The notes under the pieces: model-generated
The model's input: only the letters and a program-made list of their open reading frames with translations
What the model was told of the DNA's origin: nothing
Databases searched by the model: none
Made by a program: the position numbers and the translations under genes
Shown here: piece by piece, positions 1,645 to 15,890 of the stretch
Position numbering within the stretch: position 1 is the first letter of the stretch
Layout of the letters: each line of letters starts with the position of its first letter
Source of the DNA: a virus
DNA length: 23,766 bases
Strand: one strand, 5' to 3'
Virus record (IMG/VR): IMGVR_UViG_3300026519_000635
Span: 1 to 23,766 of that record

Positions 1645-1692
1645 TACACACAATATACACGTTCCCCATTGACGGGGACGTTATAGTGTGTA
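1645..1692. promoter_or_regulatory. Dyad operator candidate between hicA and the int operon
   Basis: An 11-bp arm TACACACAATA (1645-1655) is repeated inverted as TATAGTGTGTA (1682-1692), matching at 10 of 11 positions. Nested inside is a second, shorter dyad, GTTCCCC / GGGGAC (1661-1679). The right arm reaches the -10 box proposed for hicA. HicB proteins with an RHH domain usually bind operators of their own promoter, so this is the expected autoregulatory site; it may also affect the divergent int operon. Confidence 0.55.
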
Positions 1693-1696
1693 GTAT
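1669..1696 (+). promoter_or_regulatory. Candidate promoter of hicAB
   Basis: TTGACG (1669-1674) and TAGTAT (1691-1696) with a 16-bp spacer resemble a sigma70 promoter. A transcript starting near 1703 would have a leader of about 19 nt holding the GGGAGGAG ribosome site of hicA. The boxes lie within the dyad at 1645-1692. Confidence 0.5.
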
Positions 1697-1721
1697 ATAC
1701 ACATCGAAGGGGCGGGAGGAG

Positions 1722-1913
1722 ATGGACAGCAGGACGGTCATCCGAAAACTCGAGGAAGCCGGCTGGAAGCTGGTACGCACACGCGGCAGCCATCACCACT
1801 TCCGGCATCCAGAGCGGCCCGGCGTCGTCACCGTCCCGCATCCGAGAAAGGATCTCCCGCCCGGGACGCTGCGCTCCATCGAGAGACAGAGTGGCGTGAA
1901 ACTGAGGAGTTGA
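1722..1913 (+). CDS. hicA: HicA-type mRNA interferase toxin
   Basis: A 63-residue toxin of the HicA family, small dsRBD-like ribonucleases that cut mRNA and stall translation. The hallmark GSHHHF (residues 22-27) carries the catalytic histidine region, preceded by KLEEAGWKLVRTRG and followed by VTVPHP and the C-terminal helix LRSIERQSGV, as in typical HicA proteins. The ATG at 1722 was chosen because it follows GGGAGGAG at a good distance and gives the usual length; a longer reading from 1686 would start inside the promoter. The antitoxin gene begins 3 bp downstream. The pair faces opposite to the genes on both sides, like an inserted cassette that may stabilise the prophage. Confidence 0.92.
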   Translation: MDSRTVIRKLEEAGWKLVRTRGSHHHFRHPERPGVVTVPHPRKDLPPGTLRSIERQSGVKLRS

Positions 1914-1916
1914 GCG

Positions 1917-2348
1917 ATGTCCGTGCGGTGGTATCCGGCTGTTGTCGAGCGGGCGAAGGACGGCTTCGGCGTCGTCTTCCCCGACGTTCCCGGCTGCACG
2001 AGCGCCGGCGACACCGTCGAGGAGGCACTCAGCAACGCCGCCGAGGCGCTCGAAGGGCACATCGAGCTGCTGGTCGAGCACGGGGAGCCCGTGCCCGAGC
2101 CGGGACCTCCGGACGCGCCCGTCCCCGACTGGCTCGGTGAGGATGTGGACGTTGTCGTTCGCGTGCTGGTGCCGGTCGAGATGCCGGGCCGGGCTATGCG
2201 GCTGAACATCACCCTCGACGAGGGGCTCGTGCGCCGTATCGACAGGGTCGCCCGCGCGCTCGGCATGAGCCGTTCGGGTTTTCTCGCCGAGGCCGCCCGC
2301 CGCATGCTGCGTGAGCGCGGCGACGGGCAGGGAAAGGAAGCGGCCTGA
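1917..2348 (+). CDS. hicB: HicB-type antitoxin with C-terminal RHH domain
   Basis: Antitoxin partner of HicA. The N-terminal half has the degraded RNase H-like HicB fold (YPAVVERAKDGFGVVFPDVPGCTSAGDTVEEAL, cited in part as FPDVPGCTSAGDT at about residues 21-33), which binds and blocks the toxin. Residues 94-132 (MRLNITLDEGLVRRIDRVA, GMSRSGFLAEAARRML) form a ribbon-helix-helix DNA-binding domain, so the protein should also repress its own promoter. A proline-rich linker (about 57-72) joins the two. It starts 3 bp after the hicA stop and ends 2 bp before the stop of the convergent leftward operon, leaving no room for a terminator of usual size. Confidence 0.92.
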   Translation: MSVRWYPAVVERAKDGFGVVFPDVPGCTSAGDTVEEALSNAAEALEGHIELLVEHGEPVPEPGPPDAPVPDWLGEDVDVVVRVLVPVEMPGRAMRLNITLDEGLVRRIDRVARALGMSRSGFLAEAARRMLRERGDGQGKEAA

Positions 2349-2964: not shown

Positions 2965-3929
2965 CACAGCATCGCCTCCTGTTCCGGTGTGGAGGCCAGC
3001 GCCTCGGCCGTCTCGAGCTCCGCCTGGAAGGCATCGCGCATCGCCTCCGGAGCGCGCTTCGCGAGCATGCGCAGCGCCGGCATGTTGGCGGCGGCGAGAC
3101 CGGGCCGCTCCTCCGGGCCGGCGGCGGCCATCAGGCGGCGATACTCGGTCAGCCAGTCGCCGCCCGTGGCCACGGCCGCAGCGACTGAGCCGTCGGCAGC
3201 ATGGACGTTCAGCGACCCGCCCTTCTTCGCTGCCGTCTTCTTCTTCTGCCGCTCTCCCTCGGGCGGGCCTTTCCGCTCCGTCTCGGATGCCGCTTCTGCG
3301 CCGTTTTCGATCCGTTCCGCCTGTGGCAACAGCTTGGCCTTCAGCCCGGCGACGCCGCGCGCCAGCCTTTCGCCATCCCCTTCCGGGGAGGCCGGCGCAT
3401 GGTCGATGTCGGCGATCTCTTCGGCCACCGCCATGCCCTTGAGGACATCTGGAAACACGTCCCGGAGGGCGAACGCCCTGGCGCGCATCTGGAGCATGCG
3501 CTTCGGGTACTGCTGCCACGGCCCGGTCTTGTTCAGTAGCCCGGCGCGCTTGGCGTCCTCGGCCGTGAACTCGCGGGTGACCGGCGCTTCGCCGCGCCGC
3601 TTCACGGTGCATCGCGCACCGGCGTCCGTCACCTCCTCCTCGATGGCCTCGAGGAGGCCGCTCGCCCGCACCAGCGCGAGGACGGCATCGCCCCAGAGCG
3701 CCGGCCGACCGTTGATCACGGCGATGTTCTGCATGGCCTGCAGGGGCGGCAGACCGAGCTCCATGCCCCACTGGATGGCCACCAGCACGTTGCCCGGGTT
3801 GTTCTGGAAATCCTTCGGCACGATGCTCGATTTCGCCAGGACTTCGGCCGCCTTCAGCGCCTGGTCGAAGTCCCGAGGGATCATGCTGTTGATGTCCTGT
3901 CGCCGTGCCGGAACCGCGGCATCCGTCAT
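2964..3929 (-). CDS. recT: RecT-like single-strand annealing protein
   Basis: A 321-residue protein of the RecT-type annealing recombinases, which coat single-stranded DNA made by the partner exonuclease and pair it with complementary DNA. The core lies at about residues 15-175: GNVLVAIQWGMELGLPPLQA (46-65), VINGRPALWGDAVLALVR (71-88), KTGPWQQYPKRMLQMRARAF (134-153) and RDVFPDVLKGMAVAEE (156-171), all familiar from phage RecT proteins. A basic linker KKKTAAKKG near residue 210 and a helical C-terminal tail follow; these are not part of the core. The start ATG at 3929 forms an ATGA overlap with the exonuclease gene, as expected for a two-component recombination pair. Confidence 0.88.
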   Translation of the reverse strand: MTDAAVPARRQDINSMIPRDFDQALKAAEVLAKSSIVPKDFQNNPGNVLVAIQWGMELGLPPLQAMQNIAVINGRPALWGDAVLALVRASGLLEAIEEEVTDAGARCTVKRRGEAPVTREFTAEDAKRAGLLNKTGPWQQYPKRMLQMRARAFALRDVFPDVLKGMAVAEEIADIDHAPASPEGDGERLARGVAGLKAKLLPQAERIENGAEAASETERKGPPEGERQKKKTAAKKGGSLNVHAADGSVAAAVATGGDWLTEYRRLMAAAGPEERPGLAAANMPALRMLAKRAPEAMRDAFQAELETAEALASTPEQEAML

Positions 3930-4861
3930 GCTGCCATCTCCTCGTTCTCGGGTCTGACCTTCAGCAGGAACCGCCGGCTTTCCGTTTCCCGCTCGAATTC
4001 GCGCACGATGTCCGGGTGGGCTTTTCGGAGCGCCTTCGTATCGAGGCGCTTGGACGCGACCGCCTTCCACGTGGCGAGCGTCCGGCCATCCGGAGCGTCG
4101 AGCCGCTCCGCGTCCGCCATCGCCTTCTGTATGGCGGCGAGCAGTTCCTTCTCGCGCGTTTCGAGGGCCTTGAGCTCGGCCCGCAGGGCGGCGAGCTGTT
4201 CGGCCGCTTCCACGATGTCCGGCGGTGCCATGAGCACCCTGTCCGGCTCGTGACGCGGCCACCGGCGCCGGATATCATCGAGCGTACGAGGTTCCGGCGG
4301 CACGCGCGGCTCGACGTGCTCGCGCCAGAAACGGAGCTCCTCCTCGAAGAGAGCCCCGACGAGCTCGTCGTCCCGGTGGATGCGGTAGATGCGGAACAGG
4401 CGCTCGCCCAGGAACAGCACCGCGACATCGGCCCAGCGGCGGCCGGTGACGCCGAGGTAATGCTGCACCTGGGCGAGGTAATGCTCCGGGATTTCGTCGG
4501 TGCCTTCCTCGCCCCAATCATCGGACCGTCGCGCTGCCGTCTTGACTTCCAGCACGCCCGGGCCGCGCTCGTGAGCGACGATCTCGCGGTCGAGGTTGGC
4601 GAGGATGACCGGATGGTCCGGATGCGCCAGCGTGCGGTTGACGCGCCGGAGCTTCGCGCCCGTCCGTCGGGCATATTCCTCGGCCACGACGTCCTCGAGG
4701 ACCCGGCCCCAGTAGGTGGCCGCGGTGTCCGGCTGCGGCTGGCGCTCGCCGATCTTCTCGAGGTAGACCTCCAGGGGCGTGCGCCAGGGCGAGAGGCCGA
4801 GGATCGCGGCGGCGTCCGAGCCGCCGATGCCGCGCGTGCGATCCATCACGGTATCGGTCAC
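3926..4861 (-). CDS. YqaJ-like phage recombination exonuclease
   Basis: A 311-residue protein of the YqaJ viral recombinase family, lambda-exonuclease-fold enzymes that resect double-stranded ends. The N-terminus has the family motif RTRGIGGSDAAAILGLSPW (about residues 8-26). The metal-binding nuclease residues are seen in NLDREI (Asp91) and LEVKTA (Glu105, Lys107), followed by the helix AQVQHYLGVTG. The C-terminal third is a predicted coiled coil (AELKALETREKELLAAIQKAM). A GTG start at 4861 is preferred because it makes a GTGA overlap with the upstream stop; GTG at 4867 and ATG at 4846 are alternatives. It is translationally linked to the RecT-like gene. Confidence 0.88.
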   Translation of the reverse strand: MTDTVMDRTRGIGGSDAAAILGLSPWRTPLEVYLEKIGERQPQPDTAATYWGRVLEDVVAEEYARRTGAKLRRVNRTLAHPDHPVILANLDREIVAHERGPGVLEVKTAARRSDDWGEEGTDEIPEHYLAQVQHYLGVTGRRWADVAVLFLGERLFRIYRIHRDDELVGALFEEELRFWREHVEPRVPPEPRTLDDIRRRWPRHEPDRVLMAPPDIVEAAEQLAALRAELKALETREKELLAAIQKAMADAERLDAPDGRTLATWKAVASKRLDTKALRKAHPDIVREFERETESRRFLLKVRPENEEMAA

Positions 4862-5127
4862 GCCCACCTCCGCAGCGGCGAAAACTCGCCCTCCTCCTCG
4901 GCATCCGCGAGGGCTCGCAGCGAGGAGGCGAGGCTTTCGAGATCATGGCGCAGCGCCAGTCGGTCGAGTTCGTCGGCGAACCGCGCGCAGTCGAAGTCGT
5001 GGACGAGATGCCGGGCGGCGTAGTTGCGATCGGCCATGTCGGCCACGGCATCGCGAAGCCATTCCGCGGCTTCGGCCAACTGGGCCGTCGTGGTGGCTGT
5101 GGGTTCGGGAATGTCGGGAGCGCTCAT
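4858..5127 (-). CDS. Hypothetical protein in the recombination operon
   Basis: An 89-residue acidic, helical protein without a recognised domain. It starts at an ATGA overlap with the upstream gene and ends at a GTGA overlap with the exonuclease gene. The sequence holds two long helices (AQLAEAAEWLRDAVADMA and RFADELDRLALRHDLESLAS) and ends FSPLRRWA. Its place just before the exonuclease suggests an early role, possibly an accessory to recombination or an inhibitor of a host nuclease, but nothing in the sequence proves this. Confidence 0.65.
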   Translation of the reverse strand: MSAPDIPEPTATTTAQLAEAAEWLRDAVADMADRNYAARHLVHDFDCARFADELDRLALRHDLESLASSLRALADAEEEGEFSPLRRWA

Positions 5128-5394: not shown

Positions 5395-5422
5395 GGATTC
5401 AACAAAGTGTTGAATATGTCAA
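5395..5422 (-). promoter_or_regulatory. Candidate early leftward promoter (PL)
   Basis: On the minus strand a perfect TTGACA (5422-5417) lies about 50 bp before the first gene of the recombination operon. The -10 is weak: GAATCC at a 16-bp spacer or TTGAAT at 14 bp. The -35 is covered by operator OL2 and the spacer by OL1, the same arrangement as at the cro promoter, which supports the assignment despite the poor -10. Confidence 0.55.
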
Positions 5423-5433
5423 CAGCTTGTAGA
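5399..5433. promoter_or_regulatory. Left operator pair OL1 and OL2
   Basis: OL1 is TCAACA-AAG-TGTTGA (5399-5413), a perfect 6-bp dyad with a 3-bp centre; with flanks it extends to TTCAACA/TGTTGAA. OL2 is TCAACA-GCT-TGTAGA (5419-5433), with one mismatch. The sites start 20 bp apart, about two helical turns, so bound dimers would face the same side. The same site type stands three times beside the repressor gene, so the CI-like repressor, and perhaps Cro, is the likely ligand. Confidence 0.8.
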
Positions 5434-6375: not shown

Positions 6376-7305
6376 ATGGCTGGCCGATCGACATTTAGCA
6401 TCGCTTACGACGGGCCGGCCCTGCGGCATGGCAGAATGGATGTGCGGGATCTCGCGCCGGCTCTTTTGGCGCTTGGGGATCTCGTGGACGCGGCGAACCG
6501 CGTCCTGTACGGGGAGAAGGCCGCTCCGGTTAGCGTCCGCGTTTATGCGGTTTCCGGCGGATCGTTCGAGGTCGTTCTTGAGCTTTTTCAGTCGGTTACC
6601 CAATATGTGACGGATTTTCTGACCGGCAGGTCGGCCGACGCCCTGATGAATCTTCAGACTCTTCTGTTCGGCGGCGGCGCCACCGGCCTTGGAACCGGTC
6701 TCGTCTGGGTCATCAAGAAGCTCGGCAGAAGAAGGCCGAAGAAGATCGAGCCTCTGGAAAGCGGGCGTGTGCGCGTGGTGCCACGCGAAGGAGAGAGCTT
6801 CGAAACGACGCGGGACACCATGCGCCTTTACGCCAACATAGAGGTGCGCGTGGCTGCTTCCCACGTCGTGAAGCCGCTGGAAAATGAAGGAATCGACCGC
6901 TTGGTCATTCGCGGCGACGAGGCGGAGATCGAAGTCAGAAAGCATGAGCTGCCGTTCTTTGATCCTCCGGACAAGCCGGAAACGACGATCATCGACGACG
7001 TCCAGAAGAAAGCCTTCAAGATCGTCCGCCTCTCCTTCAAGGACGAGCCGACATGGCGCCTCCACGATGGCGAGGCGGAAATAAGTGCAAAGGTGACGGA
7101 CGAGGAGTTCCTGAAGAAAATCGACCGGAACCAGATCCGGTTCGCGAAGGGTGATACGCTCATTTGCCTGGTGCGCGTCGTTCAGAAGGAGACTCCTTCA
7201 GGCCTGAAGACGAGCTATACGATCGAAAGAGTGCTTGAGCATATGACTGCTAAACAACAGCTTGATCTGCCGATAAATGGGGAAAGCGATCTGGACAACG
7301 ACTGA
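6376..7305 (+). CDS. Membrane-associated protein of unknown family, cargo
   Basis: A 309-residue protein. The N-terminal domain ([40 protein letters not shown], quoted here in short as [20 protein letters not shown], residues 21-40) is compact and conserved-looking; I recall similar proteins scattered through bacterial genomes and prophages but cannot name a characterised member. A glycine-rich hydrophobic segment ([20 protein letters not shown], about 97-116) could be one membrane pass, followed by a basic patch [10 protein letters not shown]. The rest, about 125-295, is rich in predicted beta strands and charged residues. No enzyme motif is seen. No good ribosome site precedes the ATG at 6376; a second in-frame ATG lies at 6436. 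The layout of N-domain, membrane pass and C-domain would fit a sensor-effector, without proof. Confidence 0.75.
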
Positions 7306-7308
7306 ACC

Positions 7309-7803
7309 ATGGCCACACTGGCTGCAAAATTTCTTGTCGCAAAAATGCTGCTCGCCGCCGCTGCGTCCACCGCAGCTGAAACCATCACCGGCCCGGCCAT
7401 CGTTACCGATGGCGACAGTCTGCGGATCGGCGAGGAGCGCATCAGGCTGATCGGTATCGATGCGCCGGAAAAACGCCAGACATGCCGCGAGCGCGGCCGG
7501 AAGTGGCGCTGCGGCGTCGAGGCCCGCGAAGCGCTGCGCGAGCTCGTCCGTGGCCGCACCGTAACCTGCGACGTTCTCGGACGCGACAGATGGAAGAGGG
7601 CGCTGGCCGTCTGCCGGGCCGGTGCGCTCGAGCTCAACCGCGAGATGGTGCGCCGAGGATGGGCGTTGGCCTGGTACCCTAAGCGGGCGGTACCCGGCCC
7701 CGACTACGGGCCGGAGGAAGCGGAGGCGAGAAGCGCCAGGCGCGGGATCTGGCAGGGGCGGTTCGTCGAGCCGCAGATGTGGCGGCGGCAGCGGCGCGAG
7801 TAG
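7309..7803 (+). CDS. Exported thermonuclease (SNase)-like protein
   Basis: A 164-residue member of the staphylococcal nuclease family, Ca-dependent enzymes that cut DNA and RNA. An N-terminal signal peptide (LAAKFLVAKMLLAAAASTAAE) predicts export to the periplasm or medium. The nuclease core follows: VTDGDSLRI, RLIGIDAPE with Arg46, Asp51 and Glu54, and DRWKRALA with Arg97, corresponding to the Arg35/Asp40/Glu43/Arg87 set of the S. aureus enzyme. The gene starts 3 bp after the membrane protein gene and is probably cotranscribed with it. All catalytic residues are present, so it should be active. A periplasmic nuclease made by a prophage could degrade incoming DNA, or it may simply be cargo. 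Confidence 0.9.
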   Translation: MATLAAKFLVAKMLLAAAASTAAETITGPAIVTDGDSLRIGEERIRLIGIDAPEKRQTCRERGRKWRCGVEAREALRELVRGRTVTCDVLGRDRWKRALAVCRAGALELNREMVRRGWALAWYPKRAVPGPDYGPEEAEARSARRGIWQGRFVEPQMWRRQRRE

Positions 7804-7843
7804 CCGGCAGCACGGGCTGGGCGGCGGATCGGGCGGATGGACG

Positions 7844-8698
7844 TCAGGTTCCGAGCGCGGTACGGGCATCCCTCACGACGCTTTCGACCTCGTTGTACCC
7901 GATGAGAGTCGCCCTGATTTCTGCCGCGGCATGGCGCGCCTCGCCGATGGCTCTTCGGCCTTCTTCGGAGTCTGCCGGAGCGTAAACGGCGACCATTCGA
8001 ACGTCCTTCGGCACATCGAGCTTTTGGTCATCTACTGTCACGTGGCCGCCGCCGGCCCGGATCTTCTCCGCGATCCATGCCCATGCATGGACGTCTTTCG
8101 CCAGCTCGCCCGGGCCCGCGGTCTGGAGCGACCAGGTCCGGATGAGCTGCACCACGCGGCCATTGGCCACGGCGAACTCGAAGCGGTCCTCGTAGCCCCC
8201 GGCTTCCACCGCCGGTTTTTCCCTCAGGCTCGCATCAATGCGGGCCTCAGCGAAGGCCCTTCTGATCGCCTTGGCAAGCTGCGGCTGACCGACCCGCATG
8301 CGGCGCCTGCTCTCAGGATCGATGACCATGTCGTCGAAGATCATGTCCAAAGCATCCTCGGCGCTCGCTGCAATGGCCGGTAAAGGCGCAGAGATCTGGA
8401 TGATATTGCGCCATTCCGCGCTGATGCGGAGCAGTTCTGCCTCCGACATTCTGGGCACGCCATCCAGCTCAAGCTCGCCCATGGCAGTGTCGACCATCTC
8501 TCCCAGCAACTCGACCGCCACTAGGGCTTGTTTCAGGAGCCCTCGGCCCTCCTCGAAACGGCGAGCGCGGGCGAGGTTGCCGACGGTCCGGATCGCCCAC
8601 TCCCGCGCGGCGTCGCTTCCTGCGATCGCTCCGATATTGACAAATTCCCCGGTAGCCGGTTCCGGCACGAACCGGATCAGGCTGTACAGGTACCTCAT
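7844..8698 (-). CDS. DUF3037-like protein, third gene of the lysogeny operon
   Basis: A 284-residue protein whose N-terminus MRYLYSLIRFVPEPATGEFVNIG (MRYLYSLIRFVP, GEFVNIGAI) matches the DUF3037 family, in which a 'YslvRyvPd...GEfvNvGvi' pattern is typical. The rest is helical, with a conserved-looking strand near the end. DUF3037 genes are commonly found next to HipA-like kinase genes, and that is the case here: its ATG overlaps the stop of the HipA-like gene as ATGA. The biochemical role of the family is unknown to me. It is the last gene of the repressor operon and is convergent with the thermonuclease gene, 40 bp away. Confidence 0.75.
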   Translation of the reverse strand: MRYLYSLIRFVPEPATGEFVNIGAIAGSDAAREWAIRTVGNLARARRFEEGRGLLKQALVAVELLGEMVDTAMGELELDGVPRMSEAELLRISAEWRNIIQISAPLPAIAASAEDALDMIFDDMVIDPESRRRMRVGQPQLAKAIRRAFAEARIDASLREKPAVEAGGYEDRFEFAVANGRVVQLIRTWSLQTAGPGELAKDVHAWAWIAEKIRAGGGHVTVDDQKLDVPKDVRMVAVYAPADSEEGRRAIGEARHAAAEIRATLIGYNEVESVVRDARTALGT

Positions 8699-9492
8699 GC
8701 CACTCCTCCCGCCTGCTCGCGCAGCTTGTTGGCTATCTCGCGCGCGCGCCGCTCGAGAAACCATCCCACGCATTCCAGCTCTTCGTCGCTGACCGGCCAG
8801 CTGGACGGGATCCGTGCAAGTTCGTCGGTAAGGGATGTCCTGTCAAGCTTCTCGAGGCGGTCCGCATACGCCGTAGCGCTTGTGTGGTTTGCGCGAAAGC
8901 CGGGATGCTGAAAGGGACGCGGCAGACCTACGTTCGCGTCGAGGCTCGCGATGCACCATGTGGGGCCCTCCGGCGGCAGGAACCAGCCGTGGTCGTGGCT
9001 GAAGAAACACATGTCCTCGCCAGCCGCATGGAGCCCCTGCGCGTCTCCTCCCCAGCACCAGTCGAACAGCACCGCATAGCCGACGTACCTCGACGCGTTG
9101 TCGTCACGGTCGCGGTGCTCAAACCTTCTGCTCTCCACTGCCTTCGGCACCTCGCGTGAGCCATGCGCGATACCGGATCGGACTTGGAAGCCGCGGCCGG
9201 TACTCTCGCCTGCGAGTTCGTCGGATATTCGGACCGTGCAAACTTCACAGACGGGAGCGCCGACGAGGCGGCCCACTCTGCCGACGATCTGCTCGGTGAT
9301 TGGAACGCGCTCGGATTGCCTGTTGTTGAGCGGTTTTAACCAGTATCGTTGGCCGTCCGACCCCCGGACCCGGAATGCTCCCGAACCTCCCCCGGCGGGC
9401 ACCGTGTCGAGACGAACGGCGACGATGTCAGCCTCGTCGGATCGACGACCTCGGAGCAGACCGTGCCATCCGTCCCACTTCGTCCTGCTCAT
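8695..9492 (-). CDS. HipA-like kinase-fold protein, coupled to the repressor
   Basis: A 265-residue protein resembling the short HipA-like family found beside DUF3037 genes, rather than full-length HipA (about 440 residues). The visible kinase-fold signature is YWLKPL with Lys53, TEQIVGRVGRLVGAPV with Glu67, and SHDHGWFLP with Asp167, the metal-binding Asp. The expected catalytic loop, in HipA relatives a D-x-H/R-x-x-N type, reads GGDAQGLH around Asp150, so Asn and Arg appear to be missing. The protein could be a weakened or pseudo-kinase, or use a variant loop. Its start overlaps the repressor stop (ATGA) and its end overlaps the DUF3037-like gene (ATGA). HipA proteins phosphorylate translation factors; the substrate here is unknown. 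Confidence 0.72.
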   Translation of the reverse strand: MSRTKWDGWHGLLRGRRSDEADIVAVRLDTVPAGGGSGAFRVRGSDGQRYWLKPLNNRQSERVPITEQIVGRVGRLVGAPVCEVCTVRISDELAGESTGRGFQVRSGIAHGSREVPKAVESRRFEHRDRDDNASRYVGYAVLFDWCWGGDAQGLHAAGEDMCFFSHDHGWFLPPEGPTWCIASLDANVGLPRPFQHPGFRANHTSATAYADRLEKLDRTSLTDELARIPSSWPVSDEELECVGWFLERRAREIANKLREQAGGVA

Positions 9493-10082
9493 GGCCCCGC
9501 CCTCTTGATGTACCTGATCGGCGCCACCCAGACGAGGCGGACATCCTTCATCGGAGGGGCGGCGTGGGATTCGAGCGTCCACAGACCCGGCTTCGAGCCG
9601 CGCAGCAGGCGCTTGACGAAGGTGCGGCCGTCCTCGGTGCGGACGACCACGGTGTGGCCCACCAGTGCCTCCGGATCCACCATGCCATTCGGCGGCTCGT
9701 AGAAGATCAGGTCGCCGTCCCAGAACTCGGGCTCCATGCTGGAGCCGCGCACCACCACGGCGGCGAGCTGCCGGGCCTCCCTCCAGGGCGCCGGCACGCG
9801 GTCGAGCTCCTGGTCCTCGTCCGGCGGGTAGATCTCCGCGCCGGCGCCGACATGACCGACGACCGGGACGGTCCCGACGTCCTCCTCTCCTTCCGGCAGA
9901 AGGTCGTGCGGTGAACATTCAAGCGCCTGAGCAAGGCGCGTGAGAAATTCCGCTCGAATACGCCGCTCCCCGAGCTCCCAAAGCGAGATAGCTTGTGGAG
10001 TAGCGCCAACCCGTCTTGCGACTTCGGCTTGGCTCAAATTGAGCGCTTCGCGCCTCCGACGTATCCGCTCGCCTACACTCAT
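9489..10082 (-). CDS. cI: CI-like phage repressor with S24/LexA-type autoprotease
   Basis: A 197-residue lysogeny repressor. Residues 4-60 form an HTH_3 domain (RIRRRREALNLSQAEVARRVGATPQAISLWELG, with recognition helix TPQAISLWE). The C-terminal half is an S24 peptidase: probable self-cleavage site Ala80-Gly81 in HVGAGAEI, nucleophile Ser115 in RGSSMEP and Lys157 in RTFVKRLL. RecA-stimulated cleavage after DNA damage should therefore inactivate it and induce the prophage. The ATG at 10082 is adjacent to the operator array; a longer reading to 10274 would cross the operators. The stop overlaps the start of the HipA-like gene, so repressor, HipA-like and DUF3037-like proteins are translated from one message. 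Confidence 0.93.
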   Translation of the reverse strand: MSVGERIRRRREALNLSQAEVARRVGATPQAISLWELGERRIRAEFLTRLAQALECSPHDLLPEGEEDVGTVPVVGHVGAGAEIYPPDEDQELDRVPAPWREARQLAAVVVRGSSMEPEFWDGDLIFYEPPNGMVDPEALVGHTVVVRTEDGRTFVKRLLRGSKPGLWTLESHAAPPMKDVRLVWVAPIRYIKRAGP

Positions 10083-10110
10083 GCCGGATCCCTGTGGCCG
10101 CACGCGAGCG

Positions 10111-10171
10111 TCAACATCTCGTTGACCGCGCGTCAACCAACATGGTGTTGACAGGCTCAACAAACTGTTGA
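10111..10171. promoter_or_regulatory. Right operator array O1, O2, O3
   Basis: Three 15-bp sites of consensus TCAACA-N3-TGTTGA lie between the divergent repressor and cro genes. O1 is TCAACA-TCT-CGTTGA (10111-10125), O2 is CCAACA-TGG-TGTTGA (10137-10151) and O3 is TCAACA-AAC-TGTTGA (10157-10171); O3 is perfect and the others have one mismatch each. O2 and O3 start 20 bp apart, O1 and O2 26 bp. O2 overlaps the -35 and O3 the spacer and -10 of the cro promoter, so occupancy should shut it off. Confidence 0.85.
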
Positions 10172-10175
10172 GAAT
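10148..10175 (+). promoter_or_regulatory. Candidate early rightward promoter (PR) of cro
   Basis: A perfect TTGACA (10148-10153) and GAGAAT (10170-10175) are 16 bp apart. The predicted start is near 10182, only about 4 nt before the cro ATG at 10186, so the message would be almost leaderless. O2 and O3 cover the promoter. Confidence 0.7.
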
Positions 10176-10185
10176 GCGATGCGCC

Positions 10186-10419
10186 ATGAAACTGGACTCA
10201 TACCTGCGTCTGCATGAGATGTCAGAGCGGCGCTTTGCCGAGTTGCTGGGCGTGTCGTTCCAAGCGGTGAACAATTATCGCCGCGGCCTCCGCATTCCCG
10301 CACCACCGATCATGCGCCGCATTTACGAGACCACCGGCGGCGCCGTGACGCCAGCCGACTTCCTCGGGCTTAAGCCGCTTGGCGAGAGCGAAATGCAGGA
10401 GGCTTCCCATGCCTCCTGA
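10186..10419 (+). CDS. cro: Cro-like small HTH repressor
   Basis: A 77-residue protein with one helix-turn-helix domain: MKLDSYLRLHEMSERRFAELLGVSFQAVNNYRRGLRIPAPPIMRRIYETTGGAVTPADFL, quoted in part as RRFAELLGVSFQAVNNYRRG (about 15-34), with recognition helix SFQAVNNYR. It is divergent from the CI-like repressor and is the first gene after the right operators, so a Cro role, repressing the early promoters to favour lytic growth, is the natural reading. The ATG at 10186 is preferred: upstream ATG 10174 lies in the -10 box. No ribosome site precedes it, matching an almost leaderless transcript. The stop overlaps the start of the next gene by 11 bp. Confidence 0.85.
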   Translation: MKLDSYLRLHEMSERRFAELLGVSFQAVNNYRRGLRIPAPPIMRRIYETTGGAVTPADFLGLKPLGESEMQEASHAS

Positions 10420-10894
10420 CTGCCACGGTGCGGGGGAACGCGCATCGTCAGTCCGCGGTGCCGCGGCCGTGGATCTCGACGCGGTGCTGCGCCGGGAGCT
10501 GTGCCTGCAGGTGGGAAGAGCGCGGCGCTTTTCCTGCGAGGAGCTCGGCGACGCCCTGGAGGTGGCGCCCCGCCGGATCAAGGCGATCCGCGACGGCGAG
10601 CAGCGCGCGGGCCTCGACCTCGGGCTCCGCATCGCGGCGCTGCTCGGGCCGGGATCGCTCAACCGGCTGCTGCTCGCGGTCGGCTACGTCGCCCGGCCCG
10701 TGGAGGACGAGGACGGGGAGGCGGCGGCGTGGGCGCTCCTGGGCGAACTCGGGCGCGAGGTGGCGAGCCTCAGCGACGCGCTGGCCGACGGCCGGATCGA
10801 CCACCGGGAGAGGGCGAAACTCGCCCGGGAGCTGCAGGAACTCGTCGGGAAGGTGGCGAGCGTGGCGGTGAGGATGGAACGCGAGCAGCCATGA
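10409..10894 (+). CDS. CII-like phage regulatory protein
   Basis: A 161-residue protein. The N-terminal half contains a helix-turn-helix-like region (RRFSCEELGDALEVAPRRIKAIRDGE, about 37-62), then IAALLGPGSLNRLLLAVGY. The C-terminal half is helical and acidic, ending in a coiled coil (LARELQELVGKVASVAVRME). This order of HTH, 'LLgpgslN.LL..vGY' and coiled coil is typical of phage CII-like regulators (the P2 CP76-type group). The start ATG at 10409 follows AGGAGG and lies inside the end of cro. As the second gene of the rightward early operon, it probably regulates the lysis-lysogeny decision; the DNA target is unknown. Confidence 0.65.
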   Translation: MPPDCHGAGERASSVRGAAAVDLDAVLRRELCLQVGRARRFSCEELGDALEVAPRRIKAIRDGEQRAGLDLGLRIAALLGPGSLNRLLLAVGYVARPVEDEDGEAAAWALLGELGREVASLSDALADGRIDHRERAKLARELQELVGKVASVAVRMEREQP

Positions 10895-14445: not shown

Positions 14446-15351
14446 ATGCTCGTCTTCTGGGACGTCCGCGAGGTCACGGCAGACGCGCTGCTCCGGCGGC
14501 TCGGGAAACTGCCGGACGTCGTGCTCGGATCCCCACCATGCCAGGACGCCAGCACCGCCAATCCCGGCGGGCGCGGGGTGGACGGAAAGCGCACGGGTCT
14601 GTCCTGGGAAGCCGCACGCATCATCCGCGAGGTCAGACCTGTTTGGTTCGCGCTTGAGAACGTTGCTGGGCTCCGCCATCGCGGGGTCGAGAGGCTGTGC
14701 CTACGGCTGGAGGCCGCTTCGTACGCCGTCGAACTGCTGGAGATCGGTGCGGATTGTGTGGGCGCTCCACACAGACGGCGAAGGATCTTTGTTCTCGGCG
14801 CGCGAACCGATGCTGCCAACCCCGACGGCGTCGGCGAGCCGCAGCCGTGGCAACCGTTCGAACGGCGGTCGGCACCTGCCAGAGCTGGTCAGACGGATGC
14901 TCCCCACCGTGACAGCAAGCGACGCGCGCCTTTCTGGATCACGCAACGCGCCGGGCTCAAAGGCCAACGCGGGAACGAGTCTGTCGGATCTCGTCTCGAC
15001 TGGGGCGAGCTCGGGGCGCTGCTCGACGCATGGCGACACTGGAACCCGCATCTCCATCCTCTGTGCCCTGGCGTGGTGGATGCTTGGCTTGCCATGCCGC
15101 ACCGCGAGCGCCTGCGATGGGTGTCAGCGCTCGGAGACAGCGTGATGCCGGCGATCACCGGCCCGATATGTCGCGTGATGCGTCGCCTGTGCGGCGGGGC
15201 GACCGCGATCGAACTGTTCGCCGGCGCTGTAGGCGGCTGGTCGCTGGGAGCACGTGAAGCGGGAATCGACGTGGTGGCCATTGCCGAGGCCGATCGCTGG
15301 CGCGTCGCGCGTTACATGGACCTCCATGGTCATCGTGTGAGGGCTGCGTGA
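14446..15351 (+). CDS. Circularly permuted DNA cytosine-5 methyltransferase, probable frame disturbance
   Basis: A 301-residue protein with the motifs of C5-cytosine methyltransferases in a rotated order. From the N-terminus: GSPPCQDAS with catalytic Cys32 (motif IV), ALENVAGL (VI, 70-77), RRRRIFVLG (VIII, 110-118), ALGDSVMP (X, 228-235) and only then ELFAGAVGGWSLG (I, 256-268), with a motif II acid in AIAEADRW. So the SAM-binding motif is C-terminal. Between motifs VIII and X the present frame reads a peptide with few conserved features, while the +1 frame from 14810 reads two MLPT-TAS repeats of the type that I associate with the specificity part of phage methyltransferases. This may be a pair of compensating frameshifts. 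Activity is uncertain; it could protect phage DNA from restriction. Confidence 0.75.
   Translation: MLVFWDVREVTADALLRRLGKLPDVVLGSPPCQDASTANPGGRGVDGKRTGLSWEAARIIREVRPVWFALENVAGLRHRGVERLCLRLEAASYAVELLEIGADCVGAPHRRRRIFVLGARTDAANPDGVGEPQPWQPFERRSAPARAGQTDAPHRDSKRRAPFWITQRAGLKGQRGNESVGSRLDWGELGALLDAWRHWNPHLHPLCPGVVDAWLAMPHRERLRWVSALGDSVMPAITGPICRVMRRLCGGATAIELFAGAVGGWSLGAREAGIDVVAIAEADRWRVARYMDLHGHRVRAA
14810..15030 (+). other. Alternative-frame target-recognition segment inside the methyltransferase
   Basis: In the frame shifted by one base from the methyltransferase, codons from 14810 give MLPTPTASA (14810-14836) and MLPTVTASD (14897-14923), then SGSRNAPGSKANAGTSLSDLV. The two repeats share 7 of 9 residues through codons that differ at synonymous sites (ctg/ctc, cca/ccc, acg/aca, gcg/gca, tcg/agc), as coding selection in this frame would leave. 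In the annotated frame the same pair shares only three residues. The frame has no start of its own and stays open to a stop at about 15145. The right border given is approximate. Confidence 0.5.
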
Positions 15352-15890
15352 TGGACTGGTTCCGTTGTCCGGTTGGTCTCACTCGGGACGTCAGACTCTG
15401 GATCGTGGCCAAACGTGCCGGAGTGCATCGCGGATGCGCTTTTGCGGCGTGGATCGCGGTCCTCGAGCACGCCTGCCAGCGGGATCACGACGGGTACGTG
15501 GGTGATCTGTCGACGGCCCGTCTGGCAGAGGCAGTCGATATCCCGATCGACAAAGCAGAGCAGCTGCTCAGGGGCTTTTACGAAAAAGGACTGCTCAGAA
15601 ACGGATACGTCAGAGAGTGGGAGGAGAAATACAAAAAACCTGTCTCCTGGGATGATCGGCTTGATCTGCCAAAACACACGTGGAGAAAGATAAGGCAGGA
15701 TATCCTCCTTCGAGATGGGAGGCGCTGCAGATACTGCTGGTCGAACGTTGGACCATTCGAAATCGACCACGTGATCCCCGTGTCTCGTGGCGGCGGAAGC
15801 GAGCCCGACAATCTCGTCGTCGCATGCAGGCTATGCAATCGCCGCAAGAAGGACCGCACACCATACGAATGGCTGGCGAACAATGGCTGA
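15351..15890 (+). CDS. wHTH-HNH endonuclease fusion
   Basis: A 179-residue protein of two parts. Residues 1-90 resemble the N-terminal winged-helix domain of phage replication initiators (WIAVLEHACQRDHDGYV, STARLAEAVDIPIDKAEQLL, EKGLLRNGYV). Residues 110-172 are an HNH nuclease: WRKIRQDILLRDGRRCRYCW with Cys126 and Cys129, EIDHVIPVSRGG with Asp139-His140, DNLVVACRLCNRRK with Asn154, Cys159, Cys162 and Asn163. All HNH metal and catalytic positions are present. The ATG at 15351 overlaps the methyltransferase stop (TGATG). It could be a homing-type nuclease that captured an initiator domain, or a replication protein with a nicking domain. GC is lower here than in the neighbours, a sign of separate origin. 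Confidence 0.85.
   Translation: MDWFRCPVGLTRDVRLWIVAKRAGVHRGCAFAAWIAVLEHACQRDHDGYVGDLSTARLAEAVDIPIDKAEQLLRGFYEKGLLRNGYVREWEEKYKKPVSWDDRLDLPKHTWRKIRQDILLRDGRRCRYCWSNVGPFEIDHVIPVSRGGGSEPDNLVVACRLCNRRKKDRTPYEWLANNG

Follow-up and report, generated by a model that had tools for sequence, protein, structure and literature searches.

A HipA-Like/DUF3037 Gene Pair Behind a Phage CI Repressor: A Probable Lysogeny Operon With Putative Defence Cargo

Why should a temperate phage carry genes for a HipA-like protein and a DUF3037 protein directly behind its CI repressor, and what might the pair do in a lysogen? The locus lies in a 23,766-nucleotide stretch of viral DNA (IMG/VR record IMGVR_UViG_3300026519_000635, positions 1 to 23,766; hereafter the window), which begins at contig position 67180 and represents the left portion of a prophage (Table 1). 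A tRNA-Lys(TTT) gene (L128:7090–7165), whose end lies about 15 bases away from the integrase gene, directly adjoins it and is a likely attachment site. RecT and YqaJ recombination genes run leftward; the rightward genes encode a methyltransferase, an HNH nuclease, a replication protein, terminase, portal, a minor head protein, and a protease.

Operon Layout and Immunity Region

The product of the first gene of the operon, cI, matches HTH_3 (2.6e-14) and Peptidase_S24 (1.7e-10) in Pfam, that of the second HipA_2 (PF20613, 1.3e-9), and that of the third DUF3037 (PF11236, 1.8e-10); the latter two matches confirm family assignments that a preliminary description had made from the letters alone. 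Coding is supported for all three open reading frames (ORFs) by codon-position GC. The same description had the genes coupled by two ATGA overlaps, and the ORF translations and positions agree with this; GGAGG stands immediately 5′ of the DUF3037 start. The pair follows cI on the same strand, opposite cro, with no promoter- or terminator-like site between. Within 7300–10600, there is no minus-strand terminator-like site, the only promoter-like site is PR for cro on the plus strand, and a consensus scan recognised no PRM-like promoter for cI. The predicted cotranscription of the pair with cI, and hence its production in lysogens, as also proposed earlier, is well supported by gene order, the overlaps, and the operator-like sites.

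Table 1. Coordinates of features in the window (sites and roles as predicted)
Feature	Position	Strand	Details
Integrase	1–1095
YqaJ recombinase	3926–4867	-	Leftward operon downstream of left operators
Two operator-like sites, left region	5399–5413 and 5419–5433
DUF3037 protein	7844–8698	-	284 aa; PF11236, PADLOC PDC-M66B; presumed antitoxin
ATGA	8695–8698	-	hipA stop overlapping DUF3037 start
HipA-like kinase-fold protein	8695–9492	-	265 aa; PF20613; K53, E67, D144, D150, Q152, D167
ATGA	9489–9492	-	cI stop overlapping hipA start
cI, HTH + S24 repressor	9489–10082	-	197 aa; LexA-type cleavage site, Ser/Lys dyad (Pfam, sequence)
CI/Cro operator-like site, right region	10111–10125		TCAACATCTCGTTGA
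CI/Cro operator-like site, right region	10137–10151		CCAACATGGTGTTGA
CI/Cro operator-like site, right region	10157–10171		TCAACAAACTGTTGA
Promoter-like PR for cro	10148–10175	+	TTGACA-16-GAGAAT; overlapped by operators
Cro-like HTH protein	10186–10419	+	Divergent from cI
CII-like activator	10379–10894	+	Weak Phage_CP76/phrog_101 match; start tentative

Three instances of a 15-bp palindrome (TCAACANNNTGTTGA), located between cI and cro, form the right operator-like sites; the left sites lie upstream of the leftward YqaJ/RecT recombination operon. At one mismatch or fewer, the palindrome occurs nine times in the whole 3.2-Mb genome: five occurrences are the prophage operator-like sites, and the remaining four are single and scattered on other contigs, with no other cluster in the genome. 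Divergent cI and cro genes with repeated operator-like sites in two regions make up a putative immunity region of lambda type, in which the operator-like sites have the layout of lambda OR and OL; this arrangement was absent from the earlier account. CI retains the A80-G81 cleavage site and the S115/K157 dyad, so it is reasonable to expect that the level of the pair would drop on induction. A tblastn search with CI recovered, among other relatives, repressors from phages of Ruegeria, Mesorhizobium, and Komagataeibacter, which points to a probably alphaproteobacterial host.

In hipBA operons an HTH gene lies directly upstream of hipA. An HTH gene also directly precedes the HipA relative here, and the first two genes could on that ground be read as a hipBA operon with a HipB-like antitoxin, the DUF3037 protein being accessory. 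This reading is very improbable. Instead of a HipB-type HTH protein without S24, the upstream gene encodes a CI with both HTH and a full S24 domain, complete with cleavage site and Ser/Lys dyad; the divergent cro-like gene and the operator-like sites in two clusters are as in lambda; the closest clade relatives have DUF3037 and no HTH repressor upstream; and in a tested relative it is DUF3037 that neutralises the toxin (PMC12548924).

A HipAD-Like Pair With a Rebuilt Catalytic Loop

HipAD reportedly stems from a 2025 study of E. coli prophage defence systems by Brenes and Laub. The DefensePredictor study describes a HipA-like/DUF3037 pair as DS-6, renamed HipAD: it protects against phage, the protection is lost on catalytic mutation, and AlphaFold3 supports a two-protein complex (PMC13092281). 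In a study of retrons, the HipA-like/DUF3037 pair of Retron-Sda1 defends alone; loss of its HipA removes defence, and loss of its DUF3037 protein is toxic (PMC12548924). By analogy, both relatives support the defence role first suggested for the window pair.

The window pair has the two-gene architecture of HipAD, of PDC-M66, the candidate system under which PADLOC lists such pairs, and of the Retron-Sda1 pair, a HipA_2-family gene followed directly by a DUF3037 gene, but no retron parts, unlike Retron-Sda1. Its DUF3037 protein matches PADLOC PDC-M66B (2.6e-8); the HipA-like protein matches no PADLOC model, and in place of the N-x-D-R...N loop it has, like its whole clade, G-x-D-x-Q. Because both the catalytic loop and the HipA match are lacking, the pair is called HipAD-like, not HipAD. 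In each of the 23 DUF3037 loci retrieved from other genomes, a HipA-like ORF lies directly upstream; the adjacency is not chance. L070, L072, and L076 share the ATGA overlap of hipA and DUF3037. Apparently truncated or split HipA ORFs were seen beside the DUF3037 gene at L078:4504–5007 and L139:5460–5912 (Salmonella phage SW-37; G417).

Searches with the window proteins returned little: tblastn of both against phages and of the DUF3037 protein against plasmids gave no match, single-protein scans of viral_contigs gave no relative of either, NCBIfam holds no model for the pair, and a PDB sequence search with both profiles gave chance-level matches only. The wide family proved too diverged in alignment to allow pattern scans.

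A maximum-likelihood tree of 58 HipA-like proteins places the window protein in a ten-member clade (100/99) drawn from Pseudomonadota, Chloroflexota, WPS-2, and Actinomycetota, and the enteric phage proteins elsewhere; the deeper joins are not trustworthy because many branches are long. Its nearest relatives are L070 (WPS-2, 46% identity), L071 (Tepidiformaceae, 41%), and L072 (Kribbella, 28%); six further members, found with a profile of these relatives, belong to the order of L072. Each of the ten has a DUF3037 neighbour.

All but one of the 48 other family members (47) carry an x-D-R loop. In the clade it is replaced by G-x-D-x-Q; none of the ten proteins retains N-x-D-R or the Asn after it, and K53, D144, D150, Q152, D167, H168, and G169 are invariant among them. 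The preliminary description was therefore right to call the loop degenerate and understated the matter, the alteration being clade-wide; its metal site, SHDHG, is better described as holding the DFG-type Asp (D167), the remaining loop Asp being D150 in GGDAQ. Alignment with hhalign, spacing, and predicted secondary structure disagree on whether D150 is the catalytic Asp or occupies the position beside the metal Asn. Simple decay of the loop was considered and rejected: since all ten members, distant as they are, keep D150 and Q152, the change is a conserved feature of the clade.

An AlphaFold2 model of the window HipA (pLDDT 79, pTM 0.83) retrieves kinase folds in Foldseek, with CtkA (3akk) as the best PDB match (TM 0.55) and HipA (3dnv, 4pu5) lower. 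The modelled fold is a kinase fold shared with the HipBA and CtkA structures; unlike these, the window has no HipB, its protein belongs to a different family (PF20613), and its catalytic loop is rebuilt in a way that is conserved across phyla. The predicted helix-to-strand loop has three residues (148–150), as against 13 (138–150) in the enteric HipA, whose model is of lower confidence; the enteric protein keeps both N-x-D-R and the longer loop.

Without N-x-D-R, the activity of the window HipA cannot be assumed from HipAD, and two accounts of the loop may be considered. The clade may consist of dead pseudokinases that act by binding, as sensors or scaffolds, with DUF3037 or another protein as effector; the missing N-x-D-R and Asn in all ten members and the predicted shortening of the loop favour this account, and the invariance of K53, D150, Q152, and D167 speaks against it, arguing for a retained nucleotide/metal site. 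We regard it as somewhat unlikely. The other account, tentative and also rather unlikely, is that the clade comprises kinase-fold enzymes whose chemistry has changed (to nucleotide transfer, for instance, as in SelO pseudokinases) and that serve as DUF3037-partnered defence toxins, tied translationally to CI in this phage; were it true, the phage would obtain superinfection defence and lysogenic immunity from a single message in fixed proportion. The clade thus marked out across several phyla, with its catalytic loop rebuilt yet conserved, makes testable the role of a HipA relative without N-x-D-R and its restraint by DUF3037.

Repressor Linkage in Other Phages and Genomes

The preliminary description implied that coupling of such a pair to a phage repressor is unusual, which is not borne out. 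In Escherichia phage PhiR5_1 (PV340545.1), the annotated order is cII, cro, cI, HipA, HipD, kil, gam, bet, which places cI-HipA-HipD at the rexAB position, between cro/cII/O/P and kil/gam/bet. As in the window, the two genes of the PhiR5_1 pair overlap at ATGA and stand immediately behind a prophage cI, with cro and cII divergent; identity of the window proteins to HipA and HipD of the PhiR5_1 type is only about 20%. Starting from PhiR5_1 HipD, 36 viral contigs were fetched. Thirty distinct proteins encoded directly upstream of HipA (from the window, enteric phage loci, related phages, and L148) all carry HTH_3, and 18 also match S24 (Pfam), so that coupling is the rule in enteric phages. Near-identical HipAD genes occur in 284 of 5,426 complete E. 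coli genomes, chromosomal in every case.

L148 was the only sampled bacterial locus with a CI-like repressor just upstream; this protein is a full CI-like one, and an oppositely oriented gene nearby has a weak match to the primosomal protein DnaT. Its HipA groups with those of L150 and L151 (97/85) in the tree. L070, L071, and L072, the closest clade relatives of the window HipA, are not beside a repressor. The repressor-linked HipAs are not most closely related to one another, a pattern suggestive of separate captures, and by sequence the window is an independent and very distant case of a cI-linked pair. The slot behind cI is filled by HipA/DUF3037 pairs of at least three separate lineages (the window phage, the enteric phages, and L148), and the position is therefore a recurrent home for this type of defence.

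The gap between repressor and hipA is 23–438 nt in enteric phages and 75 nt in L148, in contrast to the 4-nt overlap in the window; none of the other HipA/DUF3037 loci compared has a cI/hipA overlap. Since the cI-HipA-HipD arrangement is already known from enteric phages, the novelty of the window lies in this overlap and the conserved variant loop; only the overlap and the kinase subclade set it apart. In Ruegeria phage 45A6, the start of a small ORF (L074:4582–4785) and the stop of that phage's CI-type repressor gene overlap in an ATGA; a cI gene that overlaps the gene after it is therefore not peculiar to the window.

One candidate for an empty-site relative, G017, was rejected, because its CI remnant has no HTH and lies in another gene context. 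At this locus (L127:11964–13280), a CI C-terminal remnant that is 78% identical precedes what looks like a RelE/HTH toxin-antitoxin pair.

A Probable Defence Cargo at the rexAB Position

Lambda rexAB and RexABpp of P. putida (PMC12894663) are likewise two-gene exclusion systems in the operon of a CI-type repressor; their proteins are unrelated to the window pair, and RexB is a membrane effector. Taken together, the evidence makes it probable that the window holds a temperate-phage lysogeny operon in which cI is followed, at the position of lambda rexAB, by a toxin/antitoxin defence pair of HipAD type. CI bound at the three right and two left operators would turn off lytic transcription and govern its own promoter; this feedback, exerted at the right operators, would determine how much of each of the three proteins is made. 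Every CI message would also yield the HipA-like protein and then DUF3037 by re-initiation at the ATGA overlaps; as the message also encodes the pair, a lysogen would always contain both proteins. In the resting lysogen DUF3037 would bind and silence the HipA-like toxin, and an infecting second phage would upset the balance between them, freeing toxin to halt growth or the production of phage. Cleavage of CI upon SOS induction would end synthesis of the pair, so that the phage's own lytic growth would be spared. The toxin, antitoxin, and defence roles are assigned to the window pair provisionally from its relatives; the proposed trigger and target, like the chemistry of the loop peculiar to the clade, are putative.

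The pair could instead be a passenger toxin-antitoxin system behind cI, serving mainly prophage maintenance through post-segregational killing. Such a role would agree with the toxin/antitoxin logic of the family, with the stand-alone pairs of the clade relatives (that of L070 lies near a tyrosine-recombinase-like ORF), and with the HicAB pair in the same prophage. It is nevertheless improbable, since a relative at the same phage position and the Retron-Sda1 pair defend experimentally, and the separate lineages behind a repressor suggest selection for expression in lysogens.

Several other genes lie in the same prophage. The HicA/HicB toxin-antitoxin genes (1686–2348, plus strand; PF07927, 7e-24; PF15919, 3e-30) are near the integrase. 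A plus-strand gene at 6376–7305, between the left operators and the cI operon, encodes a protein with a strong match to the phage protein family phrog_3243 (6.8e-62). In the early right region a DNA methyltransferase gene is followed by an HNH nuclease gene (14446–15890, plus strand). Convergent with the DUF3037 gene, a plus-strand gene (7309–7803) encodes a Staphylococcal-nuclease-like protein with a weak PADLOC SNc+LTD match.
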